Shown: positions 9,658 through 52,700 of the stretch, piece by piece
Numbering within the stretch: position 1 is the first letter of the stretch
Layout: each line of letters opens with the position of its first letter
Notes under the pieces: model-generated
Database searches by the model: none
What the model saw: the letters and a program-made list of their open reading frames with translations, nothing else
What the model was told of the DNA's origin: nothing
Origin: Prosthecobacter sp.
GTDB lineage: Bacteria > Verrucomicrobiota > Verrucomicrobiia > Verrucomicrobiales > Verrucomicrobiaceae
Direction: 5' to 3'
DNA length: 64,000 bases
Assembly: GCA_019186985.1 (NCBI GenBank)
Contig: JABARQ010000013.1
Location: 186,001-250,000, forward strand
Position numbers and translations under genes: made by a program

Positions 9658-9717
9658 TTTGAACATGAGTCTCCTGCCTTGACTCTCACCCCGCCCCCAT
9701 TGACCGTTTCACCCTGC

Positions 9718-10731
<1,014 letters not shown>

Positions 10732-10738
10732 TCCACGT

Positions 10739-10774
10739 CACCTTCCTGACTGCGGAAGCAGGGCAGGGAAGGTG
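10739..10774 (+). other. Intercistronic hairpin between moxR and the DUF58 gene
   Basis: CACCTTCC (10739-10746) pairs with GGAAGGTG (10767-10774), and inside it CTGC (10750-10753) pairs with GCAG (10758-10761) around a GGAA tetraloop. There is no T run, so it is not a classic terminator. It could protect or process the mRNA and make moxR expression differ from the genes downstream. Confidence 0.45.
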
Positions 10775-10803
10775 GTCATCATGAGGTCTGCAGACGGACA
10801 ACC

Positions 10804-11718
10804 GTGAAGCCAACCCCACCAGAAACCGAAGACGAACGCCTCACGCGCATCCTGAAGAGGGTGCGCAGGATCGAGCTGGTCACGCGCGGCATCGTCAAGG
10901 AGACGCTTGGCGGAGCCTATCACTCGCGCTTCAAGGGGCAGGGGATCGAGTTTGACGACTTCCGCGAATACCAGCCCGGTGACGACGTGCGCTTCCTCGA
11001 CTGGAACGTCACCGCCCGCATGAACGACCCCTATGTCCGCAAGTACATCGAGGAGCGCGAGCTGACCGTCATGCTCGTGGTCGACGTGAGCGGTTCGGGC
11101 GACTACGGCAGCCAGGAGGACAGCAAACGCGAGCGTGCCGCCGAGGTCGCGGCGGTCTTCGCCTTCAGCGCGGTGCAGAACCAGGACAAGGTGGGGCTGA
11201 TCCTCATTTCGGACCAGGTCGAGCACTACCTTCCGGCGCAGAAGGGAGGCTCGCACGCGCTGCGCTGCCTGCGTGACATTTTGAACCACCGCCCGCAGAG
11301 CCGCCGAACCAATCTTGCTCCCGCCCTGGACCTGGCGCTGACACGGATCGCCCACCGGGCGCTGGTGATCGTGGTGTCGGACTTCCTCACGCCGGACCAG
11401 GCCTGGGAGCACAGCCTGAAGTCCCTGGCCGCCAAGCATGACGTCGTCGCCGCACAGGTGACCGACCCCAGGGAATGGGAGCTGCCGACGGTCGGCAGGG
11501 TGTGCCTGCAGGATCCTGAAACCGGCGAGCAATATGTCGTGAACACCTCGCATCCGGCCGTGCGCCGCCATTACGCCGCCCGGATGAGCGAGCGCCAGGA
11601 GGCGCTGGGCCGCAGCCTGCGCAAGCATGGCGTCGAGCGCCTGGACGTGCGCACCGATGACGATTACGTGCCCGCCCTGAAGGCCTACTTCCGCAGCCGG
11701 AAAAGGAGGAGGAAATGA
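10804..11718 (+). CDS. DUF58 domain protein (VWA-like)
   Basis: 304 residues. The DUF58 signature is clear: GIEFDDFREYQPGDDVRFLDWNVTAR (split here for reading as DFREYQPGDD then DWNVTAR), followed by the VWA fold with a complete metal-ion site start, VVDVSGSG (DxSxS). No membrane segment is evident, so it is probably cytoplasmic, working with the MoxR ATPase encoded 72 bases upstream. The start is GTG at 10804; no in-frame ATG fits. The last codons contain the Shine-Dalgarno of the next gene, and the stop overlaps that gene's start (ATGA). Confidence 0.88.
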   Translation: MKPTPPETEDERLTRILKRVRRIELVTRGIVKETLGGAYHSRFKGQGIEFDDFREYQPGDDVRFLDWNVTARMNDPYVRKYIEERELTVMLVVDVSGSGDYGSQEDSKRERAAEVAAVFAFSAVQNQDKVGLILISDQVEHYLPAQKGGSHALRCLRDILNHRPQSRRTNLAPALDLALTRIAHRALVIVVSDFLTPDQAWEHSLKSLAAKHDVVAAQVTDPREWELPTVGRVCLQDPETGEQYVVNTSHPAVRRHYAARMSERQEALGRSLRKHGVERLDVRTDDDYVPALKAYFRSRKRRRK

Positions 11719-12257
11719 AGGTCTTGCCGTTCCAGCCAGTGATTGCCCAGCAGGCCGGCCAGGGGCCGCCCCTGCAGCCGCTGCCGCATCCTGAGCTGCC
11801 GGACCCCGCCCTGGTGACCTCCGGTCCTGAATGGTGGGTCTATGCCTCTGCGGGCGGACTGGTGGTCATCCTGCTGGGGCTTGTCATCTGGCTGCTGATG
11901 CGACCCGCCAGGACCTCGCCGCCGCCCATGAAGAAGCCCTACGCCGCCGCGATGAACCGCCTGCGCGACATCCTGGCGAAGGCCTCGCAGCAGCCTCCAG
12001 CCAGGACCGCCGCCGACGTCTCCGAGACGCTGCGCATCTATTTCCACGACCGCTACAGGATCCCCGCCCCGTTCCGCACGACGAACGAATTGTTTGTCAA
12101 CGGAGGCATCCCGGCGGCCTCGCCGCGGCTGCAAAGGTACGCCCCCCTGGCCGAGCTCTGGGACCAGCTTGCCTTCGCCCCCGTGCCGGCGGACCCGCAG
12201 CAGGCGGCCGAGCTTGTGCAGAAGGCCATCTCACACCTTGAGGAGGACCGTTCATGA
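11715..12257 (+). CDS. DUF4381-like membrane protein of the bat operon
   Basis: 180 residues: a Pro-rich N-terminal stretch, one strong membrane segment at about 41-65 (WWVYASAGGLVVILLGLVIW), then a helical domain (MNRLRDILAKA, DVSETLRIYFHDRYRIPAPF). This is the single-span helper commonly found between the DUF58 and BatA genes. It is preceded by a strong AGGAGG five bases before the ATG, lying inside the DUF58 gene, and it overlaps both neighbours by four bases (ATGA), so the three are translated in series. Its biochemical role is unknown. Confidence 0.78.
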   Translation: MKVLPFQPVIAQQAGQGPPLQPLPHPELPDPALVTSGPEWWVYASAGGLVVILLGLVIWLLMRPARTSPPPMKKPYAAAMNRLRDILAKASQQPPARTAADVSETLRIYFHDRYRIPAPFRTTNELFVNGGIPAASPRLQRYAPLAELWDQLAFAPVPADPQQAAELVQKAISHLEEDRS

Positions 12258-13279
12258 GCATCCCCTTCCTGCCCGGCATGATCTTCGGCCGCCCCGAATG
12301 GCTGCTCCTGCTTCTTCTCCTGCCCGTCATGGCCTGGTGGCGCGGGCGGACCGGCAAGGCGCCTGCGATCGCCTTTTCCACCGCCTTTGTGCTGCGTGAG
12401 ATGGGCGTCCGCACCCGCAGCGCCCGGGGCGGCTTCACCCTCGGGCTTGTCCTCCTCAGCCTTGCCTGCGCCATCATCGCGCTCGCCAGGCCGCAGAAGG
12501 TCATCTCCCACGACGAGGAGAACACCGAGGGGATCGCCATCTGCCTCACCGTCGATGTTTCGCTCTCGATGCTCATCGAGGACTTCTACATCGGCGGCAG
12601 TCCGGTGAACCGGCTGACGGCGGCGAAGCGCGTGATGCGTGACTTCATCCGCGGCCGCAAGTCCGACCGCATCGGCATCGTGGCCTTTGCCGGCGCTCCG
12701 TATTATCCCTGCCCGATGACGCTCGACCGCGAGTGGCTCGAGTCAAACCTGGAACGCGTCCAGACCGGCGTCATGGAGGACGGCACGGCCATCGGCTCCG
12801 GACTCGCAGCCGCCGCCCGCCGCCTCGACAAGGAGACCGTGCCCAGCAAGGTCATCATCCTGCTGACCGACGGCGCCAACAACAGCGGCAAGCTCAGCCC
12901 CCAGGACGCCGCCAAGCTGGGCGCCACCCTAGGCATCAAGATTTACACCATCGCCATCGGTACGCCCGGGGTTCACATGATCCCCCTGCCCAACGGCCGC
13001 GTCATCACCAGTGGACGCCAGGAGTTTGACGAAGCCACCCTCCAGGCCGTGGCGAACATCGGCGGCGGGTCATTTTACATGGCTCAGGATCTCAGCGCCC
13101 TTGCCGACATCTTCGAGACCATCGACAAGCTGGAGAAGAAGGAGATCAAGAAGCGCACCATCTCCGAGACCGAGGAGCTCTTCTTCTATCCGCTGGCCGC
13201 CGCCGCTTCACTGCTCGGGCTGGCCCTGCTCCTGCGTTTCACCTTCCTGAACGCGGCCCCGATGGCCGTGGCCACCTGA
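12254..13279 (+). CDS. batA: BatA-type VWA membrane protein
   Basis: 341 residues: two N-terminal membrane segments (WLLLLLLLPVMAWW; GLVLLSLACAIIALA), a VWA domain with the metal site DVSLS near residue 98 and the later LTDGANNSG strand, and a C-terminal membrane segment (PLAAAASLLGLALLLRF). Two-helix anchor, periplasmic VWA, then a last helix is the standard BatA layout. AGGAGG seven bases before the ATG supports the start. It overlaps the previous gene by four bases and is followed after one base by the next VWA gene. Bat proteins are linked to aerotolerance and envelope stress in Bacteroides and Leptospira, but the mechanism is open. Confidence 0.88.
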   Translation: MSIPFLPGMIFGRPEWLLLLLLLPVMAWWRGRTGKAPAIAFSTAFVLREMGVRTRSARGGFTLGLVLLSLACAIIALARPQKVISHDEENTEGIAICLTVDVSLSMLIEDFYIGGSPVNRLTAAKRVMRDFIRGRKSDRIGIVAFAGAPYYPCPMTLDREWLESNLERVQTGVMEDGTAIGSGLAAAARRLDKETVPSKVIILLTDGANNSGKLSPQDAAKLGATLGIKIYTIAIGTPGVHMIPLPNGRVITSGRQEFDEATLQAVANIGGGSFYMAQDLSALADIFETIDKLEKKEIKKRTISETEELFFYPLAAAASLLGLALLLRFTFLNAAPMAVAT

Positions 13280-13280
13280 C

Positions 13281-15260
13281 ATGTCCTTCCTCGCCCCCAA
13301 GATCCTCTGCTGGCTTCTTGCCCTGCCTGTCCTTGCAGGCTTCAAGGCCTGGGCGGACTGGCGTGCCCGGAAGGTTCAGGCGGCCTTCGCCGCGCCCCGG
13401 CTGCGCGACGCCCTGGTCTCCGGGGTCTCCAGCGGCCGCTCCTGGCTCATCTTCGTCTTCCAGGTCCTGGCCCTCGCCTGCTTCATCATCGCCCTGGCCA
13501 GGCCCTGGTGGGATGAGGACAAGGTGGTGCAGCAGGAGTCGGGGCGGAATGTCATCATCGCCATCGACAGCTCGCGATCCATGCTCGCCAACGATGTCGT
13601 TCCCGACCGTCTGACTCGCGCCAAGCTTGCCGCCCAGGACCTGATGCTGTCCCTCAAGGACGACCGTGTCGGGCTGATCGCCTTCGCCGGCAACGCCTAC
13701 CTCCAGGCGCCGCTCACGACCGATCATGACGCCGTGGTGGAGGCCATCCAGTCGATTGATTTCACCTCGGTCCCCCGTGGTGGAAGCGAACTGGGACGTG
13801 CGTTGAAGCTCGCAATCGAGACCTTTGAAAAGAGCCCTGCCAGGAATCATGGCCTGATCCTGTTCAGTGACGGCGGCGAGCCAGACAGCGAGATCAGCGC
13901 CTATGCGCAGCAGGCGGCCAGGAAGAACATCCTGGTGCTCACCGTCGGCGTGGGCACCGAGGGGGGCGCCCTGATTCCCGACCCGGATCCAGACCGCTCC
14001 GGCGATTTTGTGCGTGACCGCGAAGGCAACGTCGTGAAGACCCGGCTGGAGCCGCAGCCGCTGCAGGAGATCGCCGCTGTCACACGCGGCCGCTACCTGA
14101 GGCTGGGGTCACAGGGACTGGCGGCCGACGTGGTCCGCAGCCTGGTTGCCAGCCTTCAGGCCCAGACCAACGCCGCCCGTGAAATCGTGAAGCCGATTGA
14201 GCGTTTTTACTGGCCGCTGTCTATTGGAGTGCTGTTACTTTTCGCCGCCTGGATCATCCGCCCCGCCGCCCGCATGAAAACGCCCGTGACCCCGCCCGTC
14301 TTCGCCCTGCTGGCCTCCCTGCTGCTTGTGCCCGACGTCGATGCCGCCGATCCCGGCTTCCTCGGATCCGTGCTGGGCTCGAAGAAAAATGCCGAATCCG
14401 TCGAGGCCCACGAGGCCTACAAGCGCGGCGAGTTTGATCATGCCGCCAAGCGGTATGAGGAACTACTCAAGCAGTCGCCGGGCGTCCGCCAAAAGCCTCT
14501 TTTCGCCTACGGCATGGCCGCCTCGGCCTTTCAGCTCAAGGACTATGACAGGGCGGTCGCCGGTTACAGCCAGGCGCTGGAAAGCCCTGACTCCAAGGTG
14601 CAGAACCAGGCTCACCGCGGCCTGGCCCACAGCCTCTATGACCAGGGAGACAAGGCGCTGCCGAAGCAGCCGAAGTTCACCCTGAAGGCCTGGCGTGACA
14701 GCGTGAGGCATTTTGACGCCTCGCTGGCGATTGATCCCGGCAACAAGGAGGTCCGTGAGAACCGTGACTTTGTCCAGAAGCGCCTCGATGAACTGCAGCA
14801 GCAGATGAACCAGCAGCAACAGCAGGGCGGCAAGGGTAACAAGGGCGACAAGAAAAAAGGTCAGAAGGGCCAGAAGGGCGAAAAAGGCCAGAAGGGCCAG
14901 GAAGGTGACGAGCAGGAGGGCGACAACGGTGACGAGGAAGGCGAGGGCGAAGGTGAGGATGACAAGTCACGCAAGGAAAGCCTGGGCAAGAAGGACGGCG
15001 AGGAGGAGGGGGAAGGCGAGGGCAAGGAGCACGACAAGGAAGGGCAGCTCCAGGCTGGCGAGGGTGGTCGTGACGAGACGCCCGAAGCTCGTGCAGCGCG
15101 TGAACGTCGTGAGGCCGAGATGGCTGAGAACCAGCAGAACGAGGCCACCGGTTTCAGCCGCAATGAGGCGCGGTCCTTCCTCCGCACCTACGCCGATGAC
15201 CAGAAGAAGGCCATGATTGTCCGGCCCCGCGATGAACCTGTACGAGGCAAGGACTGGTAG
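13281..15260 (+). CDS. BatB-BatC fusion: VWA membrane protein joined to TPR protein with charged tail
   Basis: 659 residues. Residues 1-330 are BatB-like: membrane segments, a VWA domain with DSSRS near 95-99 and FSDGGEPDS, and a C-terminal membrane helix. At M332 a typical signal-type segment begins (MKTPVTPPVFALLASLLL, ending VDAAD). After it come TPR helices at about 375-510 (YKRGEFDHAAKRYEELLKQ and copies). From about 512 the tail is low complexity, rich in Gln, then Gly/Lys/Glu with GxK-type triplets, as in BatC. In Bacteroides these are two genes. Either the fused chain spans the membrane more than once, or an internal start at M332 also makes free BatC. The tail ends RGKDW. Confidence 0.85.
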   Translation: MSFLAPKILCWLLALPVLAGFKAWADWRARKVQAAFAAPRLRDALVSGVSSGRSWLIFVFQVLALACFIIALARPWWDEDKVVQQESGRNVIIAIDSSRSMLANDVVPDRLTRAKLAAQDLMLSLKDDRVGLIAFAGNAYLQAPLTTDHDAVVEAIQSIDFTSVPRGGSELGRALKLAIETFEKSPARNHGLILFSDGGEPDSEISAYAQQAARKNILVLTVGVGTEGGALIPDPDPDRSGDFVRDREGNVVKTRLEPQPLQEIAAVTRGRYLRLGSQGLAADVVRSLVASLQAQTNAAREIVKPIERFYWPLSIGVLLLFAAWIIRPAARMKTPVTPPVFALLASLLLVPDVDAADPGFLGSVLGSKKNAESVEAHEAYKRGEFDHAAKRYEELLKQSPGVRQKPLFAYGMAASAFQLKDYDRAVAGYSQALESPDSKVQNQAHRGLAHSLYDQGDKALPKQPKFTLKAWRDSVRHFDASLAIDPGNKEVRENRDFVQKRLDELQQQMNQQQQQGGKGNKGDKKKGQKGQKGEKGQKGQEGDEQEGDNGDEEGEGEGEDDKSRKESLGKKDGEEEGEGEGKEHDKEGQLQAGEGGRDETPEARAARERREAEMAENQQNEATGFSRNEARSFLRTYADDQKKAMIVRPRDEPVRGKDW

Positions 15261-15283
15261 GCGCAACACATCCCTGAGCATTC

Positions 15284-17896
15284 ATGAATTTCGCAGGCTT
15301 CCGTTTCTTGACCCCGCATCCAGGCTGGCTGCCGTTGCTGCTGGCGCTGCTCGTTTCCTCCCTGGCCCAGGGCGCCACGATCCGCGCCTATGTGCAGCCC
15401 TCCACCGCCCGGCCCAACCAGGTGATCAACTATGTCATCACCGTCCAGGACGGCCAGGTGAACAGCGTGCCGAACCTGCGCTTCCCCCTGCAGATCGGCC
15501 AGACCAGCGGGGTCAGCACCTCCCAGCAGATCCAGATCATCAACGGACGCCAGAGCGCCTCCATCCAGCTGTCCTGGGGCATCACGGCCACCGAGCCCGG
15601 AGAGTTCGTCATTCCTCCCCAGACGGTGGTTGTCGACGGCCAGCCCCTGACCACGAACGAGGTCAAGCTCACCGTTGAAAATGGCGGCGGGGCCTTCCCC
15701 AAGAACGACCAGGATCCTTCCCAGGATGACGCCAACCGGCCGATCCTTCAGATCGAGCTGGGCAAGAAGGAGATCTACCAGGGCGAGGTCGTGCCGGTGA
15801 ACGTCAGCCTGTATGTGCCCCGTCAGGTACAGCTTCGCAGGCTGGGGCTGATTGAGATGGAAAAGAGCGACTTTGCCATCGCCCGCTTTCCTCAGACGAA
15901 CGAGCAGTCCAGCACCGTCATCGACGGCATCGGTTACTATGTTCTGACCTTCCGCAGCACCCTTTCCTCGCTTCGCACCGGAGATCTGAAGGTCGGCCCC
16001 GCCAACCTTGAACTGCTCGTCGAGGTGCCGGCGGAAGGTCAGCAGCGCGGCGCCTTCCCTCCTGGCTTCGGGCAGAACTTCCCGCCCGGCTTCTTCCCTG
16101 GAATGTCCGAGCCCAGAAAGCTGGAGGTCAAGAGCCAGCAGGTGACGCTGAAGGTGCTGCCGCTTCCAGCCGAGGGCAGGCCCGCCAGCTTCAGCGGAGC
16201 CGTTGGTGAGTTCCAGATGAACGCCTCGGCCTCGCCCACGGACCTGACTGTCGGCGATCCCGTCTCGGTCGACCTCGTGGTCGCTGGTGCCGGAAACTTT
16301 GATGCGCTGAACACACCCGCCCTGGTCTCGGCCGGAGGCTGGAAGATCTACCCTGCCAAGCGCTTCGTCATCGAGGGGCCGATGGATCAGAACCAGACCC
16401 CGACGGTCGAACGCAAAATCGGTTACACGCAGGTGATCGTCCCCGAGGCGGTGCACCCCAGCGTGCCCGCCTTTGAGCTGAACTACTTCAGTCCCTCCCA
16501 GAAAAAGTACGTCACGCTGCGCACCGAGCCCATCGCCCTGAACATGAAGCCCGCACCGGTCACGGCTGCTGCGGAGTCGGCCGGTGCCGCAGGAGCTCAG
16601 GTTGTCGCCGAAACTCCCGTCGCTCCTCCTGTGGCGGACCCTCAGGCAGACATCACCGACATTCTGGTCCGGCCTCCCGCCAGATCCCGCTGGCTGGCAC
16701 CGACAAGCACGCTGCTTCTGCGCAGCGGCACCTTCTGGACGCTGCAGGGAGCCCCCGTGGCGCTCTTTGCGATCGCCTCTGTCCTGGCCGTGGCGCGCCG
16801 CCGCCGGGAGTCCCGTCTGGCAGGGCGTGCCGGGGAGCTTCGGGCCGCCTGGCAGAGCTTTGAATCCCAGGCGTCCCGGGCGGATGATCAGGAGTTTCTG
16901 CGCGGCGCCGCCCAGTTCATCCAGGTGGCGCAGTCAGGCCGTCCGGTTCCTCCTGGTCCGTTGAAGGCCATTCTTGACCGCTATCAGGCCACCAATTTTT
17001 CCGCCGCCCACGGGCCTGCCCTGCCGGATGCCGAACGCCGCGAGATGCTGGCCACCCTGGCCGCCCTTTTCCGGCAGACGCTCGCCCGGCTCAGCCTCCT
17101 CCTGCTGACATCGCTGCTCCTCGTGAATGGTTCCGTGTCGGCCGCCGAGGCCCCCAAGGCAGCTTCGGCAAGCCCTGATGCGGTTTATCAGGAAGCCGTC
17201 GCTGAAATCGAGAAGGGCAACTTCAACCGTGCCCAGTACCTGGCCGAGTCGCTGGCGAAAAAGAAGCCGCCGCAGCTAAGCGCCGAGGTTTTCCAGATCA
17301 TCGGCCACGCCAGGTACCGCCAGGGTGACATGGGCCGTGCCGCGCTCTGGTATCAGCGCGCCCAGCTTCTCGATGGAAGGAATGCCGAGCTGAAGCAGAA
17401 CCTTCGCCACATCCATGAAAGGACGCGCTACCTGAGCTTTGGGGAATCCTCACCGCTGCGCCTGGCCAGTTTTTACCTGAGCACCAATGAGTGGCTCATC
17501 CTCGCGGCCTCTGGTGTCTGGCTCATCTTCCTTTCCCTGGCCTGGCGTGTGCTTGCCGGCGCCGACCGCAGGTCTTCCTGGCCGGTCGTGGCCAGTGTCA
17601 TCGGGCTCTTCATTGCCGTCCCGGCTTCCACTTTTGCCGCTCTTCGCCCGCTTGGACCTGAGCGGGTGAAGGACATCAGCATCGTCACCCAGCCCGATGT
17701 GAACTCCTACACCAGCGCTACGGTGACCAGTGGTTCCGTGATCTCACTGCCGCCCGGCAGTCAGGTGCGCACGCTGGAAACACGCGGCCCCTGGCTTTAC
17801 GTCGAAATCCCCGGCTCACCAGAAAACCTGCGAGGCTGGGTGGAGGCTGCCGCCGTGACGCCGCTGTGGACCTGGGATGCCAGCCTGGTGCCCTGA
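15284..17896 (+). CDS. BatD-BatE fusion: beta-rich periplasmic protein joined to TPR/SH3 membrane protein
   Basis: 870 residues. A signal peptide (to about 28) leads to the BatD region (VQPSTARPNQVINYVITV and similar repeats of beta domains), then a membrane helix at about 484-503 followed by RRRR. A second signal-like helix follows at about 599-620 (LSLLLLTSLLLVNGSVSAAEA). After it come TPR helices at 636-705 (AVAEIEKGNFNRAQYLAE; ARYRQGDMGRAALWYQRAQ), two more membrane helices near 730 and 765, and a bacterial SH3-like domain to the end (GPWLYVEI, GWVEAAAV). The order TPR, two helices, SH3 is that of BatE. An in-frame ATG at residue 588 sits just before the second signal helix. It closes the operon. 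Confidence 0.83.
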   Translation: MNFAGFRFLTPHPGWLPLLLALLVSSLAQGATIRAYVQPSTARPNQVINYVITVQDGQVNSVPNLRFPLQIGQTSGVSTSQQIQIINGRQSASIQLSWGITATEPGEFVIPPQTVVVDGQPLTTNEVKLTVENGGGAFPKNDQDPSQDDANRPILQIELGKKEIYQGEVVPVNVSLYVPRQVQLRRLGLIEMEKSDFAIARFPQTNEQSSTVIDGIGYYVLTFRSTLSSLRTGDLKVGPANLELLVEVPAEGQQRGAFPPGFGQNFPPGFFPGMSEPRKLEVKSQQVTLKVLPLPAEGRPASFSGAVGEFQMNASASPTDLTVGDPVSVDLVVAGAGNFDALNTPALVSAGGWKIYPAKRFVIEGPMDQNQTPTVERKIGYTQVIVPEAVHPSVPAFELNYFSPSQKKYVTLRTEPIALNMKPAPVTAAAESAGAAGAQVVAETPVAPPVADPQADITDILVRPPARSRWLAPTSTLLLRSGTFWTLQGAPVALFAIASVLAVARRRRESRLAGRAGELRAAWQSFESQASRADDQEFLRGAAQFIQVAQSGRPVPPGPLKAILDRYQATNFSAAHGPALPDAERREMLATLAALFRQTLARLSLLLLTSLLLVNGSVSAAEAPKAASASPDAVYQEAVAEIEKGNFNRAQYLAESLAKKKPPQLSAEVFQIIGHARYRQGDMGRAALWYQRAQLLDGRNAELKQNLRHIHERTRYLSFGESSPLRLASFYLSTNEWLILAASGVWLIFLSLAWRVLAGADRRSSWPVVASVIGLFIAVPASTFAALRPLGPERVKDISIVTQPDVNSYTSATVTSGSVISLPPGSQVRTLETRGPWLYVEIPGSPENLRGWVEAAAVTPLWTWDASLVP

Positions 17897-18104: not shown

Positions 18105-20750
18105 ATGAGCTTTTCGTTCCGCACCATGTTCCAAAACAGCCATGAGGCCGGCCAGCAGGCTGGCAGAGCTGTGATGGATCCCGCTGGCACGAGTCCGGCT
18201 GCCCTGTCGTCCGCCATTATGCAAGCCGCCCTTCCGCTCAACGCCGTCAGTCCGTTTGGAGGTCCGCTTTTCAAGGCCTCAGCAGGAGAGCAGGCTGTGG
18301 CAAGCCCGGTGGCGGGATCCCCCTTTTCAGTGTCGTCCGCCGGCCCGGCAAATGTGCCGCTGACCGTGGGTGATGTGATGCCGCAGCTCCCTCCGGAGCT
18401 TGCCAGGTCGGGGGCCCTGCCTCCGGATCATCCGGTGGCTCTTTCCAGCCAGGTGATTGATGAGGCCTTGCGCAGCGGTCGTGCTTCAGTGCCGGTTTTT
18501 GAAGTCTACCGGGTGTGCCCGGCCCTGTTTCAAGCGCCGGTTTCACCGCAGGATCAGCGCATGGTGCCGCTTCCGGCTGCAAAGCTTCCGCACTTGATTG
18601 CGGCTTCCAGGGGAGGCCAGGCTGAGGTGCCTGCCCCGGTTCCTTCATCCATGGTCAAAGCTTCGCCGTTCATGATGGCGGTCATTCCTTCAGAACCGGC
18701 TGCTGCGATGCCTTCTGCATCGGCCGAGGCATCGGTTGGAACGGGTACGCTGCTGCCTCCGAAAAGACAGGGTCCCCCACCTGCGCTGGCGGATGTCGGC
18801 AGGATGGTTTCTCCTGATGTGGCCCTGCCCGGCACGGCGGCGGCTTTTCCCATGAGTCCTTTTGCCGTGGGGGCAGGGGCAAATCCAACGGTGCAGGCTG
18901 CACCGTCGGCGTCTCCTTTTGCGGTCCCTCCTTCGGAGCCTGCATCCGCCCAGCCGCCCCGCATGGAGCAGGCTGCGTCACCCTTTCAAACAGCGCCTGT
19001 CCCCGCTTCGCCTTTTGCCCCGGCTTCGCCTTCCACTCCGGAAGCTCCGCCGACACAAGCTGCGGATTCTCCTTTTGCCGCCGTGTTTGGCGGCAAGGCG
19101 GTGCCGGTCAGCCCTCCTGGCATGGAGGCTCCGCCTTCACCTGCTCCTGGCGTGTTCCCGGCCCAACCCCCTGCGGACGCTGTTCTTCCATCCTTTGGAT
19201 CGGCCGCTTCCGCTCCTTCCCAGGCCATGGGGGGCGGAATGGTCAGGATCGCCCTGGCATCCTTGTTAAAGGGTTACAGCGTCGCTGAACTCGGCTTTGA
19301 CCCCATGGTGGTGCCGGGCTGGATCACCACGGCCCTGCCCTCCCATGTGGCCAGGGAGCTGGCGATTTCATCGACGCCGCTTGTCGAGCTTGGCCTGCTG
19401 GTGGATGGCATCACGGACGTAGGATTCCGCAACGTGTTGAACACGGCCAAACGCGAGTTTCAGATGCGGGTGGATCCCGGGGTTCTTCAGCAGGCGCTTG
19501 CCGGCAATCATCCCCCTGGCGGCCTGCCCAGCCTGAGCAACCTTGGACCCGGTTCACTCAACGCCGCTCCCAAGCCTGCGCCTTCGTTTGGGGCTCCTCC
19601 TGGCGGACCGATGCGGGTCGAGCCCTCCGCGCCTCCGACATCCTTCACGCCGCCGCAGCCATCGATGCCCTTGACGCCTGCGACGCCGGTGCTGAAGCCG
19701 CCGCAGCAGGCGTCACAGGCGCTGGAAACCGAGGCGCCCTCGCCCTTCCTGGTGCCCGCCGCAGCCTCGAAACCTTTGTTTTCACCCGCCACCGCCAGGG
19801 ATCCGTTCTCGGTTCCTGCGGAATCTGCCGCATCTTCCTTGGGTGCTGGCATCGGAATGCCACAGGCTCCCAGGCATCAGGACTTCATGGCGAGCAGTCC
19901 GCAGACCAGGGAAGTGCCGGTGGCGGTCCAGGTTCCGCCCTTGCTGACGCCAGCCCCGGGAAGTTCGTTCCTGGGTGGTGATGCGGACAAACCCTCAGGG
20001 GATGGATTTGGCAGTGATCAACTGCTGGGCCGCGTCTCCAGCTCCACTGCAAGCTGGAACGAAGCGGCGGTCACCAGCGCAATGGGTGAGTCTCCGGTTT
20101 TTCCGCCGGCCAAGGAGGCTCCGCTCATCGAGCTTCCGCCTGCAATGCCTTCCCTGGACGAGCCTGCTGAACCTGAGCGCGGCTGGGCGGCGTCGCCCGC
20201 CACCCGTCCGTTCATCGCGCCGAAGTTTGATGACATGCTGCCGCCGGTGCCGGTGGAGGAAGAGCCGCCGCGTCTGCGGAAATCCTCGCCGCCCCCGCCG
20301 CCCCGTGCGGCTGCCAACGGCAGTTCCTCGAATGTCGGGGTGCAGGCCCATGACTCGGATCCTGACCAGATCGTGCTTCGTGCCCTGCTGGACACGGACT
20401 CAGACCTCGAACCGCAGAAGGTGGTGGAGCTCACCTGCAGGCTGCCGGGCATTGCCGCCTGCGTCTGCCTGCATGACGGCAGGGCCATCTCACATGTCGG
20501 CGCCCACAAGCCGCAGGCCCGGGAGTTCCAAAAGCAGGCGACCCAGCTCGCCCAGCACCTCAAAACACTCGCCCCGCTGATCGGCATCGATGGAGCCGAG
20601 ACCTTCACGATGAATTCCGGCGACCGACTGATGACCTTCTGTTTTCCAGACCGGGCCATCCTTGGCGTCCTGCATGATGCCGAGCCCACCCTTGGCCTCA
20701 GGGATAAGATTACCTTGATCGCCAGGGAGCTTTCCCGCATGGTTTCCTGA
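18105..20750 (+). CDS. Large disordered SPF-repeat protein with C-terminal roadblock/LC7-like domain
   Basis: 881 residues, mostly Pro/Ala/Ser-rich and probably disordered, with nine SPF and one DPF tripeptides scattered through it (e.g. ASPFAVPP, DSPFAAVFG). Three stretches look folded: about 80-165 (PLTVGDVMPQLPPELARSG), about 375-467 (MVRIALASLLKGYSVAELGF), and the C-terminus from about 751. The last (DQIVLRALLDTDSD, LPGIAACVCLHDGRAISHVG, then strands and a final helix) has the secondary-structure order and phrasing of roadblock/LC7 proteins, the class that contains MglB, the GTPase-activating partner of MglA. The stop is followed after one base by the start of an MglA-family GTPase, which strongly supports the roadblock reading. 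The start ATG 18105 has no clear Shine-Dalgarno. Confidence 0.7.
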   Translation: MSFSFRTMFQNSHEAGQQAGRAVMDPAGTSPAALSSAIMQAALPLNAVSPFGGPLFKASAGEQAVASPVAGSPFSVSSAGPANVPLTVGDVMPQLPPELARSGALPPDHPVALSSQVIDEALRSGRASVPVFEVYRVCPALFQAPVSPQDQRMVPLPAAKLPHLIAASRGGQAEVPAPVPSSMVKASPFMMAVIPSEPAAAMPSASAEASVGTGTLLPPKRQGPPPALADVGRMVSPDVALPGTAAAFPMSPFAVGAGANPTVQAAPSASPFAVPPSEPASAQPPRMEQAASPFQTAPVPASPFAPASPSTPEAPPTQAADSPFAAVFGGKAVPVSPPGMEAPPSPAPGVFPAQPPADAVLPSFGSAASAPSQAMGGGMVRIALASLLKGYSVAELGFDPMVVPGWITTALPSHVARELAISSTPLVELGLLVDGITDVGFRNVLNTAKREFQMRVDPGVLQQALAGNHPPGGLPSLSNLGPGSLNAAPKPAPSFGAPPGGPMRVEPSAPPTSFTPPQPSMPLTPATPVLKPPQQASQALETEAPSPFLVPAAASKPLFSPATARDPFSVPAESAASSLGAGIGMPQAPRHQDFMASSPQTREVPVAVQVPPLLTPAPGSSFLGGDADKPSGDGFGSDQLLGRVSSSTASWNEAAVTSAMGESPVFPPAKEAPLIELPPAMPSLDEPAEPERGWAASPATRPFIAPKFDDMLPPVPVEEEPPRLRKSSPPPPPRAAANGSSSNVGVQAHDSDPDQIVLRALLDTDSDLEPQKVVELTCRLPGIAACVCLHDGRAISHVGAHKPQAREFQKQATQLAQHLKTLAPLIGIDGAETFTMNSGDRLMTFCFPDRAILGVLHDAEPTLGLRDKITLIARELSRMVS

Positions 20751-20751
20751 C

Positions 20752-21384
20752 ATGCCGGCCATCGACGCCCAGGAGCGCACCGTGCGCTTTAAAATCGTTT
20801 ACTGCGGGACTCCGCTGAGCGGAAAGACCACGAACCTGCGTCAGATCCACGCACGGCTTGACCCGCAGGGCAGGGGTGACCTCGTCAGCCTGTCCACCGC
20901 ACAGGACCGGACGCTGTTCTTTGACTTCCTCGCTGTGGAAAGCCAGGCCATCCCCGGCTACCGCACCAGCTTTCACCTCTACACTGTCCCCGGCCAGGTC
21001 ACCTACAACGCCACGCTGCAGCTTGTGCTGAGGCAGGCGGATGGGGTTGTGTTTGTCGCCGACAGTCAGATGGACCGCCAGCGCGACAACGTGCACGCCT
21101 TCCAGGCCCTGGAGGCCAACCTCCGCCTGAACGGCTCCAGTCTGGACCGACTGCCGCTAGTGCTTCAATACAACAAGCGTGACCTGCCGAATTCTGCTCC
21201 GGTGGAATACCTCGAATTCCTGCTCAACAACCGGCCGGTGCCGCACCTCAGCTTTGAGGCGGACGCCAAGAACGGCCGCAACGTGCTGGCCACGCTGAAC
21301 GCCATCACCCAGGCCGTCGTCGCCCGCTTCCAGGAGGCCCGTGAGCAGCATCGCGAAGTCCTGCGTGATGTGATCGCCGCCTGA
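20752..21384 (+). CDS. MglA-family small GTPase
   Basis: 210 residues. P-loop GTPLSGKT at 19-26; switch region LYTVPGQVTYN at 77-86 with the MglA-specific TVPGQ; VFVADSQ at 101-106; guanine-specificity motif NKRD at 141-144 in the phrase LQYNKRDLP. These phrases are nearly those of Myxococcus MglA, which sets cell polarity and directs motility with its roadblock partner MglB. Length is slightly above MglA's ~195. It is separated by one base from the roadblock-tipped protein, so the two are coupled and probably interact. In this organism the role could be polarity or protein localisation; that is inference. Confidence 0.88.
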   Translation: MPAIDAQERTVRFKIVYCGTPLSGKTTNLRQIHARLDPQGRGDLVSLSTAQDRTLFFDFLAVESQAIPGYRTSFHLYTVPGQVTYNATLQLVLRQADGVVFVADSQMDRQRDNVHAFQALEANLRLNGSSLDRLPLVLQYNKRDLPNSAPVEYLEFLLNNRPVPHLSFEADAKNGRNVLATLNAITQAVVARFQEAREQHREVLRDVIAA

Positions 21385-21414: not shown

Positions 21415-21438
21415 CCGGTGTTCTGGCATGATCCAGGC

Positions 21439-21930
21439 ATGAAGGCCCGCCTTTTTCCCGTCCTCTGCCTCCTGCTTCAGGCCTGCGTGGCGCCACCCGA
21501 GGATGGAGCCGTCTCTTCCAGAAAACCGTCCCGGGTAAAACCCGGCTCTTACAGCTACCCACAGCCGGGCAGTGCTTCAGGCATCTCGGCCCAGGACGCC
21601 GCGACCACCATCCAGCCGGGGGAAACCTCCAGCGCCTACCGCCTGCGCCAGGAGCGTCAGCAGCGAGACGCAGTTCCGGATGCGCAGGTGATGTATCATC
21701 GCAGTGAGCAGGACATCCTGGGCCGCAGCTCCGAGTCCGGCATCTACCGCAGCACAGGAGGCGTGACCGAGGAGGTCCACATCGGCAATCAGCAGATCCC
21801 GGTGGTGCCGGGCCAGCGCCTCGGGCCAGCCCCCGCTTACAACAACGTCTATCAGGGCGGTTATGTGCCGCCCGGCACCACCGGCATCTACGATCCGCGC
21901 ACCGGCCGTGTGCTGCGCGTGCGCCGCTGA
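21439..21930 (+). CDS. Small lipoprotein, function unknown
   Basis: 163 residues starting MKARLFPVLCLLLQAC; the LLQAC at 12-16 is a near-lipobox (position -2 is Gln, not the usual small residue), so lipid attachment at Cys16 is likely but not certain. The mature part is Ser/Pro/Gln-rich with no recognised domain and ends in PPGTTGIYDPRTGRVLRVRR, a short motif followed by a basic tail. The ATG at 21439 is used because the in-frame codon at 21418 precedes an unrelated stretch. It follows the MglA-family gene by 54 bases, beyond a hairpin, and could be a separate unit. Confidence 0.65.
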   Translation: MKARLFPVLCLLLQACVAPPEDGAVSSRKPSRVKPGSYSYPQPGSASGISAQDAATTIQPGETSSAYRLRQERQQRDAVPDAQVMYHRSEQDILGRSSESGIYRSTGGVTEEVHIGNQQIPVVPGQRLGPAPAYNNVYQGGYVPPGTTGIYDPRTGRVLRVRR

Positions 21931-43756: not shown

Positions 43757-46700
43757 ATGAAAACCAGCAACCCGAACAAGCTCCGCCACGATTCCGTCTT
43801 CAGGCAGCTGCGTCGCCCCGTTTGGAAAAAGGCGATTTCGTCCGTCCTGCTTGTGCAGTTCGCCCTCTGGAGCGTGCAGGTCAATGGCGCCACGGGAACC
43901 TGGATTCTGAACAACAGCGGCAACTGGACCGGCACGCCCGCCAACTGGGAGGGCGGAGTCATTCCCAATGCAGCGGGCGACATCGCCGTGTTCCGCAATG
44001 AGATCACCGCCACTCGAACCGTCACCCTGAACGCCCCGATCACCCTGGGGGGCATGCGTGTGGGCGACATCCTGGGTGGCAGCGTCTACACCTTTGCGGG
44101 CACCAACGCCCTGATCATGGACAGCGGCGGTGCGGGCAATGCCTTCATCAACCTTTACAACAACTCCACCAACAACTTCCAGACGCCGCTGACGCTGAAC
44201 AGCAACACGGACCTGAACGCCTACACGGGCACCATTGACATCAACGGCGCCTCCAGCGCCCAGGTGGTGGTCACCGGCAGCGGCAACATCATCAAGAACG
44301 GCGCCGGCCAGGTCCGCATCAATGGCACGCTTACCGGCTACTCCGGCAACTTTGTGCACAACCTTGGCACCCTGGCCATCGGTGGCGCGAATGGTGCCGC
44401 GATCAACCTGGGCACGGGAACGGGCGGCATCACCCTGAACGGCTCCGGCTCCGCTGACCGCACCGTGCTTCAGTTCCGCAACAATGGCACGGGCAACAAC
44501 GGCACCATCCAGGTGCAGGGCAACAACCAGGTCACCGTGCAGGGTGCCGTCACCATTTACACCGACTCCAACTACGTCACGGGCACGAACACCGGCAACA
44601 CCTTTGAGCTGAACGATCTCGTGATGAACGGCGGCCTGCTGCAGACCACGGGGGCCAACAGCTACGGCCTCCGGGTCGCCGGCACGACCTATCTGAACGG
44701 GCAGACCAACGTTTTCTTCCCCAGCTCCGCCCAGCTGACCCTGGCAGGTGTCATTGACGACGGGCTGGCCAGCCGTTCCCTCGTCAAGGAAGGCGCCGGC
44801 CGCCTTCTCATCAGCAACGCCGCAAACACCTATGACGGCGTGACGGCGGTCAAGAACGGCATCCTTCAGCTGGGCGCCGGCGCCAACCTGGGCGGTGGCG
44901 TCACCTATGTAAACGGCGGTGTCCTGGTCCCTGACAACAAGGCCGCCCTGGATGCCGTCAGCACCAACGGCCTTGAGCTGGTCGGCCAGCTTGGCACCTC
45001 GCGTTATTCCCTTGGCGCCATCGGCATCTCGCAGAACTACGGCGCGATTGACGCCACCAACAACGTGGCCGTGAACGTGCCTGCGGCGGGCATCGCGCTG
45101 GCGGTCGACAACATCGCTGGCAACGTCACCAACGACATCGACCTGAGCAAGGTGGGCAACGCAGGCGACGGCAACCGTGTCTGGCTGTCCAACGTCATCG
45201 GTGCGGACCGTGCCTTTGAAGGTGTGGTCATGCCTTCCAGCGATGGCAGCATCCGCATGACCTCGGGTGGCAACACCCTCATCATTTCCGGGGCCGGCAA
45301 CCGCCTTGGCGGCGCCTCCTCCACGGCGAACCTGATCTTTGGCTATGATCACGCCAATCCGATGATTTTCAACGGCACCGCGATTGTCCAGATGACCGGC
45401 GGCACGGTCTCCGTCCGCACCAACAACGACACCACCGGCAACGTCATCGTGAACCGCGGTGTCACCGCCAACATCAACGGCACCATCACCACCCCCCTGG
45501 GCACCGGCCCGGTGATCGGCCTTGGCGGCACCATCTCGACGGACAACACCTCCGCCGCCAAGTTTGGCAACACCAGCTTCACCCTCTTCGGCGGCAGCAC
45601 CCTGCTTCTGGACAACTCGGCGGTGGCCACGGCCAATGCTGACCGTCGCCTGGATCCTGCCACGGACATCTCGCTGACTTCCTCCACCCTTCGCCTCCTT
45701 GGTGATGGTGGCGCCGCCACGGTTTCCTCTCAGGCCATTGATGATCTCAGCTATGCAGGCGGCAACACCCTCAGCATTGACACGGACGCCGCCACGGCGG
45801 GCAGGCTGACGACCCTGACGCTGAACACGCTCACCCGCACCGGCAACGGCACCCTGAACATCCGCAACACCGCCAACACGGCGACGACCCTCGGCACCTC
45901 CACCGGCACCCAGAAACTCATCATCACCAGCGCGCCCACGGTGACCAACGGCATGATTGGCGCCAACATCGCCCTCTGGGGGGGTGCCAACCTCAATGAC
46001 GGCGGCACGCCGCTGTTTGCCACTTACGACGCCACCCACGGTGTCCAGGCAGCCAGCTTCACCCTGAACAACACACTGACTGGCGCCACCACCGCTTCCG
46101 TCGTCAACTACGACGCCACGGCCTACACCGGCGCCGGTGCAAGCGTCCAGGCCCTGCGCATTCGGTCCACCGCCAACACCCACACCTTCAACGCCTCCAG
46201 CGCGATGACGCTGGGCGCGGCCGCCGGCGTCGGCCAAGGGGCGGGCCTTTTCCTGGCCCACACCGCCAACAACGGCATCACGCACACCACCAGCTTCAAC
46301 TTCGGCAGCCAGGAAGGCATGATTTATGCCGCGACAACCGGCGGCGGTTCCGGCGTGATCACCCTCAGCGGCGTGCTTTCCGGTTCCAATGGCATCACCC
46401 GCTTTGGTGACGGCATTCTTTCCCTCACCGGCCAGAACACCTTCACCGGCGCCCTCAACCTCAACTCCGGTGAAACCCGCCTCAGCCAGGGGGCCGCCGG
46501 CCTTCCCACGGATGCCATTGCCAAGGATGTCAACCTCTGGGGTGGTTCGGTTTACCTCCAGACCGGCAGCGCCCGCTACCAGACGAACCTGGTCGTTCGT
46601 GACGACGTCCGCATCGGCAACGTCAACGTCAGCGCCTCCGGCTTCAACAACCTGGTGGTTGAGCCTCGTGTCGGCAGCACCGCCCCAACCCAGGTCCGCG

Positions 46701-49700
46701 TGCAGGCCCAGGCAGGCAGCAACATCACCACCGTCTATGGTTCCCTCGTCCTGAACAACGACGCCCAGTTCTCCATCCAGCACGTCCTCCAGGTCAACGG
46801 TGGTCTCACCGGCACGGGCAGGTTTGACAAGTTCTACAAAGAGAGGCTGATCGTCACGGGCGATTCTTCCGGCTACAGCGGAGCCATCACCAGCTATGCC
46901 GGCAGCATGACCAGCTACAACACGGGTTCCGCTCCCTTCGGCACCGGTGCCATCACCCTGAATCCGGGCGCCGCCATCACCCTGGCGAACAGCAACAACC
47001 TCAGCTCCGGCCAGCTCACCATGAACTCCGACCGCGGCGGCATCTCCGGCATCGGCATGCTGTATGTGGCGGATCCGTTGACCTCCCTGCCGAGCTTCAC
47101 CATCAACACCACCGCCCCCTGGGCGACCGGTCTTGGCATTGGTTCGGTGAGCTTCAGCCAGGACATCGACCTTGCCGCTCTCGCCACCAGCTGGGGTGGT
47201 CTGGGAGATGTCTACCTCGGTGCTGCCCTGGGTTACACGGGCATTTTCACCGGCAGCCTTTCACCTGCCTCGGGCAGCCGCTACCTGCTCGGCACCCAGC
47301 AGGGCACCCTGCGCGTTGCCGTTCCCCTTGGTGGCAGCAACACGATTGTCAGCGGCATTTCGATGACGGGTGACTCGAGCCGCGCCGACCAGACGGTGAA
47401 CAACAGCGGTGGCGTCCTTCAATTCGACGTCCTTCAGAACCACACCGGCGGAACCATCATCAACCCAGGTCCGACGGTGCGCTTCAGCGCCCGTGATGCA
47501 CTGGCCGGCACGGGGGACATCACTCTCGCAGGTGGTTCCTTCCGTGTGGATTCTGGCAGCGGCCAGAACCGCGCCATCGTGCCGATGACGATCAGCAACA
47601 ACCTGATCTTCACCGCGGACACCACCCTGCAGATGGAAAACTCCGCCTACGACGCTCGACTGGGAGGCACGCTTGCACTGGCCCCGGGCTCGACGGGTGT
47701 GGTTCGCACCTTCAGCATCGGCACCGACCAGACCGGTGGTGATGTCAACAACGCCGGCATGGTCTGGATCGACGGCGGCATCACTGATGGCGTCGGCGGC
47801 TCCGGCAATCACTTCGTCAAGGGCGGCCTCGGCACCTTGTTCTTCAACGGTGTCAACACCTACACCGGTTCGACGACCCTTGCCGGCGGCCTGATTGGCG
47901 TCAACCAGGACAGCGACTGGGGCCAGACCAGCCTGATCAACATGGTGAACGGCGGTATTGCCGTCTGGGAAAACTCCTTCACCACCTCCCGCAACTACCA
48001 CATCCATGGCAGCAACGGCTACTTCGACATCGCCGGTGGCCTGACCCTGACCCAGGATCCCTCCTCCGTGATCGACGGTGGCAACTCCCTGATGAAGCGC
48101 GGCCTCGGCACAATGGTCCTTAATGGACAGAATTCGATCATCGGCCTCTTTGTTGCGGATGGTGTCCTGCAGGTGAACAACCAGCTCGCCCTGGGAGATC
48201 CCGCCACCACCAGCTCCTTCAGCTTTGGCAGTGATCAGCTTCTTGGCGGAGCCGGCACCAACACGCGCTACATGGGCGGCACGGCGCGCATCAACTTCAC
48301 CGGCAGCACCAACCGCGGTGCTGTCTTCAACAACAACGGCAACACCAACACCAGCGGCGGCATTGACATCACGTCGGGCAACACCTTCACGATGAACGGC
48401 GTCTTCAGCCAGGGAACGGAGCTGGATTTCGGCTTCAAGACCGGCCCCGGCACCCTGATCACCACTGGTGCCAACACCATGCGCGGCTTTGCCATGACCA
48501 ATGGTGTCTGGCAGTTTGCCAACGTGGCTCCCTGGGCGAACAGCACCGCCACCGCCACTGACAGCACCATCATCGAAATGATGGGCGGAACGATCCGCGC
48601 CCTCAACACGACTGCTGCCGTCGCCCTGGCCAACAACACCAGCACCACGACCTACAACTATGGTGGCGGCATGACCCTCGCCATTGGCAGCAACACCGGC
48701 TTCTCCTTCGAGTTTGCCGCTGACAACCTGATCCGCCAGAACCAGGGCACCCTGGTGCTCCAGGTCCTGGGCTCCACCACGCTGGGCGGAGCGGGTGCGA
48801 CCAACGCAGCGCGGGTGATCACCACCAATGCGGTCAATGCCAGCCTTGCCCGCGCTTCGGCGCTGACGAACGGCATCTTTGCTCCCTCCCTCATCGGTGC
48901 GACGGCCGCAGGAGACGGCTTCTTCCTGGAGAATGACGCCGTCACCGGCTTCAAGGCCTATTCCGGCGCCACGAACACCAGCCTCAGCGGCGTCTTCCCG
49001 AACGCCATCGCTGACATCAGCGCCGAACAGAACCTGACCGGCGAAAACAGCGTTTACGCCTTCCGCACCAACTCCAACGTCCTTGGCGGCACCCTCCGCA
49101 TCCCGGCCGTGGACAACGTGAAGACGGGCGGCATCCTGATCAACGGTTCGAACACCCTCTCCACCAACCTGATCTTCGACCCATCCTCCGCCACGGCTCC
49201 GGGCACCGGAACGACGGGTGAGGGCCTGGTCTTCGTGAAGAGCGGTGAAAACGCCGTCATCTCCGGCAACATCACCGCCAACGCCTTCACCAAGTTCGGC
49301 AACGGCAGCCTCGAGCTTCAGGGCGCAGCCATTGCCCCCTCCTTCGTCAGCGTCCAGGCAGGCACCCTCAAGCTGGGTGCCCAGGGTGTGTTCGGAACCA
49401 TGAACGCCGATCTTCGTGTCAACGGCGGCGCCGCCCTCGACCTGAACGGCAACAACGGCTCCTTTGAAACCATCGAGTCCAACAACCGCCTCGTTGGCGC
49501 GGTCGCCCGCGTCGGTGGCACCGTGAAGAACACCTCCGGCACCCCCGCCACCCTGAACATCGCAGGACCGACCACCTCCACCTACAACGGCACGCTGGAG
49601 CTCAACCTCCGCCTGATCAAGCAGGGCGCAGGTGTCCTGACCCTCAATGGTTACACGTCCTCCACGCCGGATGCAGGCGTCAACACCCACACGGGCGGCA

Positions 49701-52700
49701 CCGACATCTACGGCATCGGCACCACCGGCGGCCTCAACATCAACAACTCCACCACCGCACTCGGTGGCGGCAACGGCACCACCCCCGGCGACGTCAACCT
49801 CTACGGAGGCACGCTGGGTCTGCTTTTCAGCAACGGCGCCACGGGTGTCAACGGCACCAACGGCCAGCAGTACAACAACATGGTGGCGATCTTTGGCAAG
49901 GACGGCACCGCAGGGCTGACCCTCAACGTCCGCGGGCCAGGCCTTGTCACCGTCAACAGGGGCACTCCGCTGAGCAACACCCAGTTCGGCGTCGGCAACA
50001 TCATGCAGGTGGGCGTGCTCAACATGTCCAACACCACCCTTCAGGTGAGCGGCGGCAACAACTATCGCTTCCGTGTCGGCGGCCCCACCAACATCATGGG
50101 CTCGCAGGCCGCCTTCCAGACCAACAGTGACGGCCCCAGCGGCATCATTGAACTCTACGGCGTCATCTCCGGCGGCACCCTCACCAAGCTGGGTGACGGC
50201 ACGATCCGCAACCTCGTCATCGGCGGCAACGCCAACACCTACACCGGCGGCACCAACATCATCGCGGGTGACGTCCAGGTCCTGGCCACCACGGGCACAC
50301 CCCTCGGCAGCGGTCCTGTCCGCATCTACCCTGATGGCGCCCTTCGCATCGCCGGCAACGGCGGCGTGGACGGTTCCAAGCTGACCACCATGAGCCGCGC
50401 CGGCGCCCTGGGTGCGGTGGTCATTGAAGGCAACTTCAACCCAAGCGTCCTCAACGCGACCAACTTCTCCAGCGTCTACAACACCGCCCTCCAGCTGGGT
50501 GAGCCCTACTTCCAGACGGCCCTGGACATGAACACCATTGGTGACGGCCGCGCCTTCCTCGGCGGTGGTCTCAACGGCGAGGTCGCCTATGTGGCCCCCA
50601 CCCTCGGTGCCGGCGCGCCGGATGCCTGGAATCCGGGTGTCGGCGTCTACCGCATCGCTCCAGGAACGAGCAGCTTCGCCTTCTCAGGCGTCGACAACGT
50701 GCTGACCGGCAGCAACTACCTGCAGGTCGGACCTCAGCGTAACAACTTCTTCGGGGCCATCGTCAACGGCGGCAACATCCTGGTGATGCGCAACGCCAAC
50801 GACTTCACCGGCGGCACGCAGATCACCAAGGGAGCCAGCATCTACACTGAGCTCGGCGGACGGGTCGGCGGTGAAACCGCCCTGGGAACCGGCGACATCG
50901 AAGTTTACGGCACCCTGCGCATCCGCGGCGCCCAGGGATCGATGGTCAACCCGGCCACCGGCCTTCACTACAACAACATTGTCCTCCGCCCGGGCGGCCT
51001 GGTCGGCCTGCACGAGGCCGATGGCACGATCGCCATTCCGTTCATCGGAGCCGGCGGCCAGGGGCGCTGGGCTGACAGCATCGGCATCGACCTGAACGGT
51101 GGTGAGTTCCGTTACGACGGCGGCATCAACATGACCACCACCGAGACCATCGGTGATGTCACGGCCCGCAAGCGCGGCATCATCACCGTTGCGCGCAACA
51201 CGGGCGCCTCCGCCGCCCAGCTCAATGTCGGCGCCATCTCCCGCGCTGAACGCGGCATTCTGACCCTCAACTACAACAGCGGCTTCCTTGGCATTCCCGT
51301 CACGACCCCGCTTTCCTATGAGCGCCTGACCGCCACTTCCATCGGCGGGCTTGCCGTCACCGACCCCGGCATCCGCAGCGGCACCACCAACAATGGTTCC
51401 GGCGTCACCAACGGCGGCATGGTCGCCCCCTGGATCATCGACCGCGTCACCCATTCCTTTGTGGGCTACAATCCGACGGCCGGCGACACCGGCTTCCAGC
51501 CCCTCATCAGCGCCGCGTCTCCTGGTGCGGGCCAGATCTCCTACAATCAGATCCTGACCGGGGCCACCTTCACCGCCACGGGCTCCAACGACATCGTTGA
51601 CGTGACCACCGCCGCCAAGACCCTTGGTGCCAACGTCACCATGCATGCCCTGCGTGCCACCCAGAACATCAGCCCGACGGCCAGCTTCAACACGATCACG
51701 CTCAACAGCGGCGGCTTGATCGGTGCAACCAACACCGTCACCATCAACCCGACGGGTGCCGTCACTGCGGGCGTGGTTTCTCCGATGACGCTGAACTTCG
51801 GTGCGGGTGGTGCGGGTGAAGCCTTCATCTACAACAGCAGCACCTTCATCATCCAGGCGCAGATGAATGCGGCCCAGGGTCTGACCAAGTTCGGTGCTGG
51901 TCAGCTCCAGATCCACGGCATCAACCCGGGCATTGGCGGCCCGGTGACCCTTCATGAAGGCACCACCTACATCCGCGTGCCCTATTCCCTCACCGGCTCG
52001 GCCGTCGGCCAGGTCCTGAACAGCCAGGATGTCATCGTCAACTCGGGCACCCTGAACCTTCAGTCCTTCAACGCCAACCCTGCGGGAACGGCCACGGAGA
52101 TTGCCTCGAACGTGCAGTCGGGCCAGGGTTACTTTGCCAGCGACATCTACATCCAGGGTGATGCCATCCTGCGCAACAACGGTCAGGCCCAGTATGTCCG
52201 CATCGCCGACCTGACCATCGGCAATTCCGCCGGTTCCAGCGCCATGACCGGCAACAGCAGCATCACGCTTGAGCTCCAGAGCGGCATCTGGGTGAACGGC
52301 ACGACCACCCTGAATCCTGAAGCCAGGATCAACGGCACCTTCAGCGGCTTCTCCCAGACGAGCCTGGCCGGTGTCGTCACGGGCGCAGGCGGCCTCATCA
52401 AGTTCGGCAACGGCGCCACCACCCTCATGAACCCCGCCAACGATTACGCAGGCGGCACGACCGTGTGGGGCAGCACGACGGGAACGGCGACCAGCACCGT
52501 CGCCTCCACCGTCCGCGGTGCCGGCACTCCGTTCGGCCCGGGTGACATCAACGTCATGCCCGGCGGCCACCTCCGCATCGCCGACAACGCCAACATCGCC
52601 TCCAACGCCGTCTACATCACCTCCGACGGCTACGGCCTCGGTGGCATTGGCCTGGCCCACAACGGAGTCCTTCCTTCGATCATTACGACCGGCACGCCTG

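Follow-up and report, generated by a model that had tools for sequence, protein, structure and literature searches.

What partner does the single MglA-type GTPase of a Prosthecobacter sp. have? Knowledge of MglA systems comes mostly from Myxococcus and Thermus. In the stretch of 64,000 nucleotides analysed here (the window), the GTPase gene is preceded by the gene of a protein of 881 residues, whose C-terminal part had been suspected in a preliminary description of being an MglB carried at the end of a disordered arm. The boundaries given there for both genes, and the single base between them, proved exact. The features of the locus are collected in Table 1, and the long product is referred to below as the armed protein, or armed roadblock.

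Table 1. Positions of the features of the MglA locus within the window.
Feature	Position	Strand	Evidence
Armed roadblock protein, 881 aa, whole gene	18105..20750	+	Intact ORF; orthologue upstream of MglA in relatives
N-terminal motif MSFSFRTMFQ	18105..18134	+	Kept in relatives
Arm domain copy 1, residues 85-166 (predicted)	18357..18602	+	63-82% identity to near relatives; pLDDT about 92-97
Linker 1, residues 167-378	18603..19238	+	28-43% identity to near relatives; pLDDT mostly <52
Arm domain copy 2, residues 379-467 (predicted)	19239..19505	+	64-70% identity to near relatives; pLDDT about 93-96
Linker 2, residues 468-752, Pro-rich	19506..20360	+	21-37% identity to near relatives
C-terminal roadblock/LC7 domain, residues 753-881 (predicted)	20361..20747	+	AlphaFold, Foldseek, VIA-align, hhalign
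MglA-family Group 1 GTPase, 210 aa (predicted)	20752..21384	+	phmmer vs 6h17; motifs
Lipoprotein-like ORF, 170 aa, at the place of the relatives' small roadblock (MglB)	21418..21930	+	Translation; no Pfam match

The GTPase and the armed protein

Residues 4-200 of the GTPase match the PDB MglA entry 6h17 (phmmer, E 3.7e-51), and the MglA proteins of Myxococcus and Thermus are both matched at E of about 1e-50. The expected motifs are all there, namely the P-loop GTPLSGKTT (GxxxxGK[ST] pattern), DRTLFF(DF), TVPGQ and NKRD, which confirms the earlier identification made from TVPGQ and NKRD. The arginine adjacent to G2 (DRTLFFDF) and TVPGQ in G3 are invariant across the GTPases of the aligned relatives. 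In a published survey (PMC4316618), Group 1 MglA is defined by TVPGQ in G3 together with an arginine adjacent to the threonine of G2. On sequence grounds the product is therefore a Group 1 MglA, with predicted GTPase activity. It is the only MglA in the genome (assembly 96% complete), and is 90% identical to that of the nearest named relative, Prosthecobacter (Brevifollis) gellanilyticus.

Direct searches of Pfam and NCBIfam with the whole armed protein gave nothing. Its start codon is supported by the N-terminus MSFSFRxxF, which is kept in relatives. The ten SPF/DPF motifs counted in the preliminary description are confirmed as nine SPF and one DPF, every one of them outside the folded segments, and their number is far above expectation (SPF in 500 shuffled sequences: mean 0.55, maximum 4, against 9 observed). 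Six of the SPF lie in linker 1, which is 64% Pro, Ala, Ser and Gly, and linker 2 holds one SPF and the DPF.

The long disordered arm proposed earlier is thus correct as regards the Pro/Ala/Ser-rich linkers and their SPF motifs, but it also contains two copies of a folded domain. The model of the arm covers 416 residues, with residues 476-740 (the bulk of linker 2) lying outside it. Each copy is predicted with pLDDT >90 and with a similar succession of short strands and helices, and most of the linker between them has pLDDT near or below 50. The two copies align with E 9.6e-6 when distant relatives are included, and with E 1.8e-7 in the subset of loci L099-L101/L038; near relatives alone gave no signal. 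Taken together, the alignments and the model indicate that these segments are two copies of one domain of about 90 residues with a predicted fold. This domain has no match in Pfam, and the 416-residue model, a query that includes the long unfolded linker, found no PDB fold match to it with Foldseek or VIA-align. Among near relatives, the folded segments of the protein are conserved (63-82% identity) while the linkers drift (21-43%).

Two features of the surroundings may be added. Directly upstream of the armed gene is a MoxR-DUF58-BatA-BatB-BatD (aerotolerance-type) cluster (9679-17896, + strand). Further downstream, the Pfam matches of a single ORF of 6642 aa (43757-63685, + strand) are to passenger-associated transport repeats (PATR), a feature shared with giant surface proteins of the autotransporter type.

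The C-terminal domain as a roadblock

The C-terminal domain was modelled by AlphaFold with pLDDT 87 and pTM 0.84, using 33 aligned relatives. The order of its elements is that of a roadblock (helix, two strands, helix, three strands, helix), and its top PDB matches in Foldseek are MglB chains. Against 1j3w, VIA-align gave Z 13.2 over 115 aligned residues, with rmsd 3.1; the MglC structure 7ct3 is also among the fold matches, at Z 9.9, below MglB. Weak matches to DUF2173 and Amphi-Trp were dropped as unsupported.

Searches with sequence profiles were less direct. The domain of the window has no direct Pfam match, and a profile of the roadblocks of its clade gave only chance matches against PDB sequences, MglB not being among them, so that the identification needed both the fold and the distant relatives. 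It is homologous to the C-terminal domains of those relatives (hhalign, E 2.9e-15), of which 11 out of 13 match Pfam Robl_LC7 (best 1.8e-8). The roadblock profile search that the preliminary description had proposed succeeds only by this route; its assignment of the last ~130 residues is upheld by the model of the domain alone, which has the roadblock fold, and by these relatives. The last ~130 residues of the armed protein are therefore predicted to be a roadblock/LC7 domain.

Several features set this domain apart from MglB. It ends a chain of 881 residues and is not a free-standing small protein. The last helix of the model occupies residues 125-140 of 141, and the chain stops there, without an extension of the MglB type; in MglB the C-terminal helix carries exchange activity (PMC11016934). 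A profile of the distant armed roadblocks matched LC7 chains in the PDB and no MglB up to E 1, and comparison of the roadblock of the window clade with true MglB by hhalign gave no signal. Neither of the MglB GAP residues N37 and R98 is kept in the profile of true verrucomicrobial MglB, as read off the alignment, and they are therefore useless as a discriminator.

Distribution of the gene pair and the fate of MglB

A long ORF directly precedes the GTPase gene in 40 of 41 fetched loci, the exception (L007) being at a contig end, and the pairing is therefore not due to chance. Both genes are present in 49 of the 59 genomes of the family, with neither in 8, MglA alone in 1 and the armed gene alone in 1. 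They adjoin in 48 of the 49, with 6-117 bases between the matched parts. The conservation that the preliminary description expected of the pair is thus borne out.

Across 289 genomes of the phylum, MglA was found in 33, the arm domain in 31, and both in 27. The arm domain is therefore present in 27 of 33 genomes with MglA, against 4 of 256 without (Fisher p 4e-28, relatedness being ignored). In the distant families the armed gene is usually divergent from mglA-mglB. Its product has a disordered arm and a C-terminal roadblock, contains the arm domain once or more, and often includes an HhH_3 domain. HhH_3 was matched in 5 of 6 distant armed proteins scanned (Pfam E 7.5e-13 to 3.8e-19); the presence of a helix-hairpin-helix in many relatives hints at contact with DNA or the nucleoid. 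The armed gene and MglA are unlinked in six genomes (G143, G171, G208, G250, G266 and G286). Each of the four unlinked loci examined has a C-terminal roadblock match, which in G171 lies in a separate reading frame past a masked stretch. The four genomes that have the arm domain without MglA all belong to family f19, and the three examined encode a small protein with one arm-domain copy and no roadblock (L155:2691-3179, L156:1840-2826 and L157:2149-2616).

The profile matches thus describe a family of armed roadblocks that spans Verrucomicrobiota and travels with MglA. The arm domain occurs in hardly any genome that lacks MglA. A role specific to prosthecate cells, as suggested in the preliminary description, is unsupported by this distribution, since armed relatives accompany MglA across the whole phylum. 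A roadblock that co-occurs with MglA even where the genes are unlinked is a concrete candidate for positioning polarity GTPases in Verrucomicrobiota. The PilT family is found in 287 of the 289 genomes, and its presence is therefore uninformative on a pilus role. In some other families (L115:3-1766, L069, L072, L074) the neighbours of MglA-MglB are, by eye, of GspE-N/MshEN type and PATAN (DUF4388) type, making a link to type IV pili possible there.

MglB itself has its own history. In many relatives a roadblock gene of about 130 codons lies directly downstream of MglA, and 17 of 18 aligned products match Robl_LC7 (E up to 0.1). In distant Verrucomicrobiota the profile of this downstream gene matches the PDB MglB entry 6izw (E 2.6e-30), which identifies it by sequence as canonical MglB; hhalign shows the small downstream roadblock of the family studied here to be its homologue (E 2e-14). 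The genome of the window has a degenerate MglB descendant on another contig, immediately after polA (identified by eye), which is about 110 aa long and apparently without the first helix. The same polA-linked position is occupied by the descendant in close relatives. At L090:3292-3633 and the equivalent site in L091-L096 it keeps the C-terminal tail SLADALN. In G032 the polA-linked copy contains stop codons, and the armed gene was not found there. Because the descendant is still present, any replacement of MglB would be incomplete in the genome of the window, a point against the preferred reading given below.

Searches with two profiles found no MglB-type gene in nine genomes of Verrucomicrobiaceae (G001, G012, G019, G002, G013, G005, G015, G006 and G014), a count limited by the sensitivity of the profiles, which a very divergent MglB could escape. 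MglA is retained in all nine, and so is the armed roadblock. Two of them, G012 and G002, are assembled as single contigs; a Robl_LC7 gene does occur in G002, but it is unrelated and distant from MglA. Three genomes of family f2 have a degenerate MglA homologue, from which TVPGQ, NKxD and either the threonine of the P-loop or the P-loop as a whole are gone (f2/g13, at L102:1417-2010, L103:3769-4350 and L104:2165-2725). It adjoins a short, SPF-rich armed roadblock, and the same two profiles found no MglB there. Across the genomes MglB is lost by degrees, from canonical through degenerate and relocated to undetectable, while the armed roadblock is kept; this amounts to a natural experiment on the exchange of a GTPase regulator.

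The existence of a separate MglB family in the phylum, and of its degenerate descendant elsewhere in this genome, argues against the proposal that the armed protein holds MglB at the end of its arm, as do the absence of the MglB C-terminal extension and the profile relationships. These sequence comparisons make the armed roadblock a divergent member of another subfamily, additional to MglB, rather than an MglB with an arm. Because a separate MglB exists, it is comparable to MglC in M. xanthus.

Possible roles and known systems

Our preferred reading, to which we give a probability of about 0.5, is that the armed protein is an adaptor resembling MglC and RomR that has here become the main partner of MglA. 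The C-terminal roadblock would dimerise and dock on MglA, and on MglB where that is present, and the arm, with its two folded-domain copies and many SPF motifs, would tether the complex to a cellular site or an output machine. The protein would then act like RomR and MglC fused to each other, a single polypeptide supplying both the disordered arm and the second roadblock. In Verrucomicrobiaceae it may have become the constant partner of MglA as the canonical MglB degenerated, changed place or disappeared. Direct binding of MglA, dimerisation and tethering are inferences, and so would be any influence on the hydrolysis or exchange of GTP. The evidence for the reading comprises the roadblock fold and the homology to Robl_LC7 proteins, the adjacency to MglA, the co-occurrence across the phylum including unlinked genomes, and the conservation of the folded segments while the linkers drift. 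Support also comes from the existence of a separate MglB, from the nine genomes that keep MglA and the armed roadblock and in which MglB was undetected, and from the retention of the armed roadblock beside the degenerate MglA in f2. That it is kept in genomes lacking a detectable MglB, and even next to a GTPase that has degenerated, suggests that MglA is its direct partner.

The same observations can be read in other ways. The armed roadblock might be a functional substitute for MglB, its dimer itself being the GAP (and perhaps the GEF) of MglA and the arm mainly a localiser. Its fold is closest to that of MglB, its gene adjoins that of MglA, it is kept where MglB is undetectable, and the MglB descendant in this genome is a short protein, apparently without the first helix. 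However, the sequence profile is not MglB-like, the extension that bears the exchange activity of MglB is missing, and GAP activity would be pointless beside the degenerate GTPase of f2; we regard this as possible but doubtful. A strictly MglC-like protein would bind only MglB, never MglA, and its partner in the window genome would be the polA-linked descendant. M. xanthus MglC does bind MglB and not MglA (PMC7949163, PMC10329633), and the degenerate MglB persists in this genome, but the armed roadblock is also kept alongside MglA in genomes where no MglB was detected, which makes this unlikely. Finally, adjacency alone can be inherited, and the armed protein might have a function unrelated to MglA. 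Since the association survives both the change from divergent to co-directional gene order and the unlinking of the genes in six genomes, such a purely historical neighbourhood is very improbable.

A bolder reading can be proposed tentatively. Verrucomicrobiota may have a polarity hub of their own, formed by one chain in which a roadblock is joined to a long arm with a new, duplicated domain; in Verrucomicrobiaceae this hub may have taken the place of MglB as the partner of MglA, and in one sister group it may have outlived GTPase activity.

In the open-access literature, the only work found that touches on this combination in Verrucomicrobiota is the survey PMC4316618 and studies of globins (including PMC4476040); a description elsewhere is possible. 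Methylacidiphilum infernorum HGbRL (PMC4476040) likewise comes from Verrucomicrobiota and has a roadblock fused to another domain, in a genome with a separate MglA-roadblock gene pair. Its other domain is a globin, however, no disordered arm is described, and the gene is not beside an MglA-like gene. The survey published by Wuichet and Sogaard-Andersen in 2014 (PMC4316618) describes 1:2 MglA:MglB gene sets, which similarly combine one MglA with two roadblock genes, of which only one co-evolves as MglB. Its accessible part does not describe long-armed roadblocks, and assigns Verrucomicrobia to Group 5 instead of Group 1.

In M. xanthus, MglB is the roadblock GAP/GEF of the Group 1 Ras-like GTPase MglA. 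The present system shares the GTPase family and its catalytic motifs, a roadblock gene beside mglA, and a C-terminal domain with the predicted fold of MglB. It differs in that M. xanthus MglB is free-standing, only about 160 aa long and equipped with a C-terminal helix, whereas here the roadblock ends a long chain without the extension and belongs by profile to another subfamily. In the same polarity module of M. xanthus, MglC is a second and strongly diverged roadblock; it connects MglB with RomR, which has a disordered region (PMC7949163, PMC10329633). MglC and RomR are two proteins, RomR having a receiver domain, whereas the armed protein is a single chain whose duplicated domain is, by Pfam, unrelated. 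As a second roadblock beside MglB, here joined to a disordered arm, the armed roadblock would thus appear to have its best analogue in MglC.
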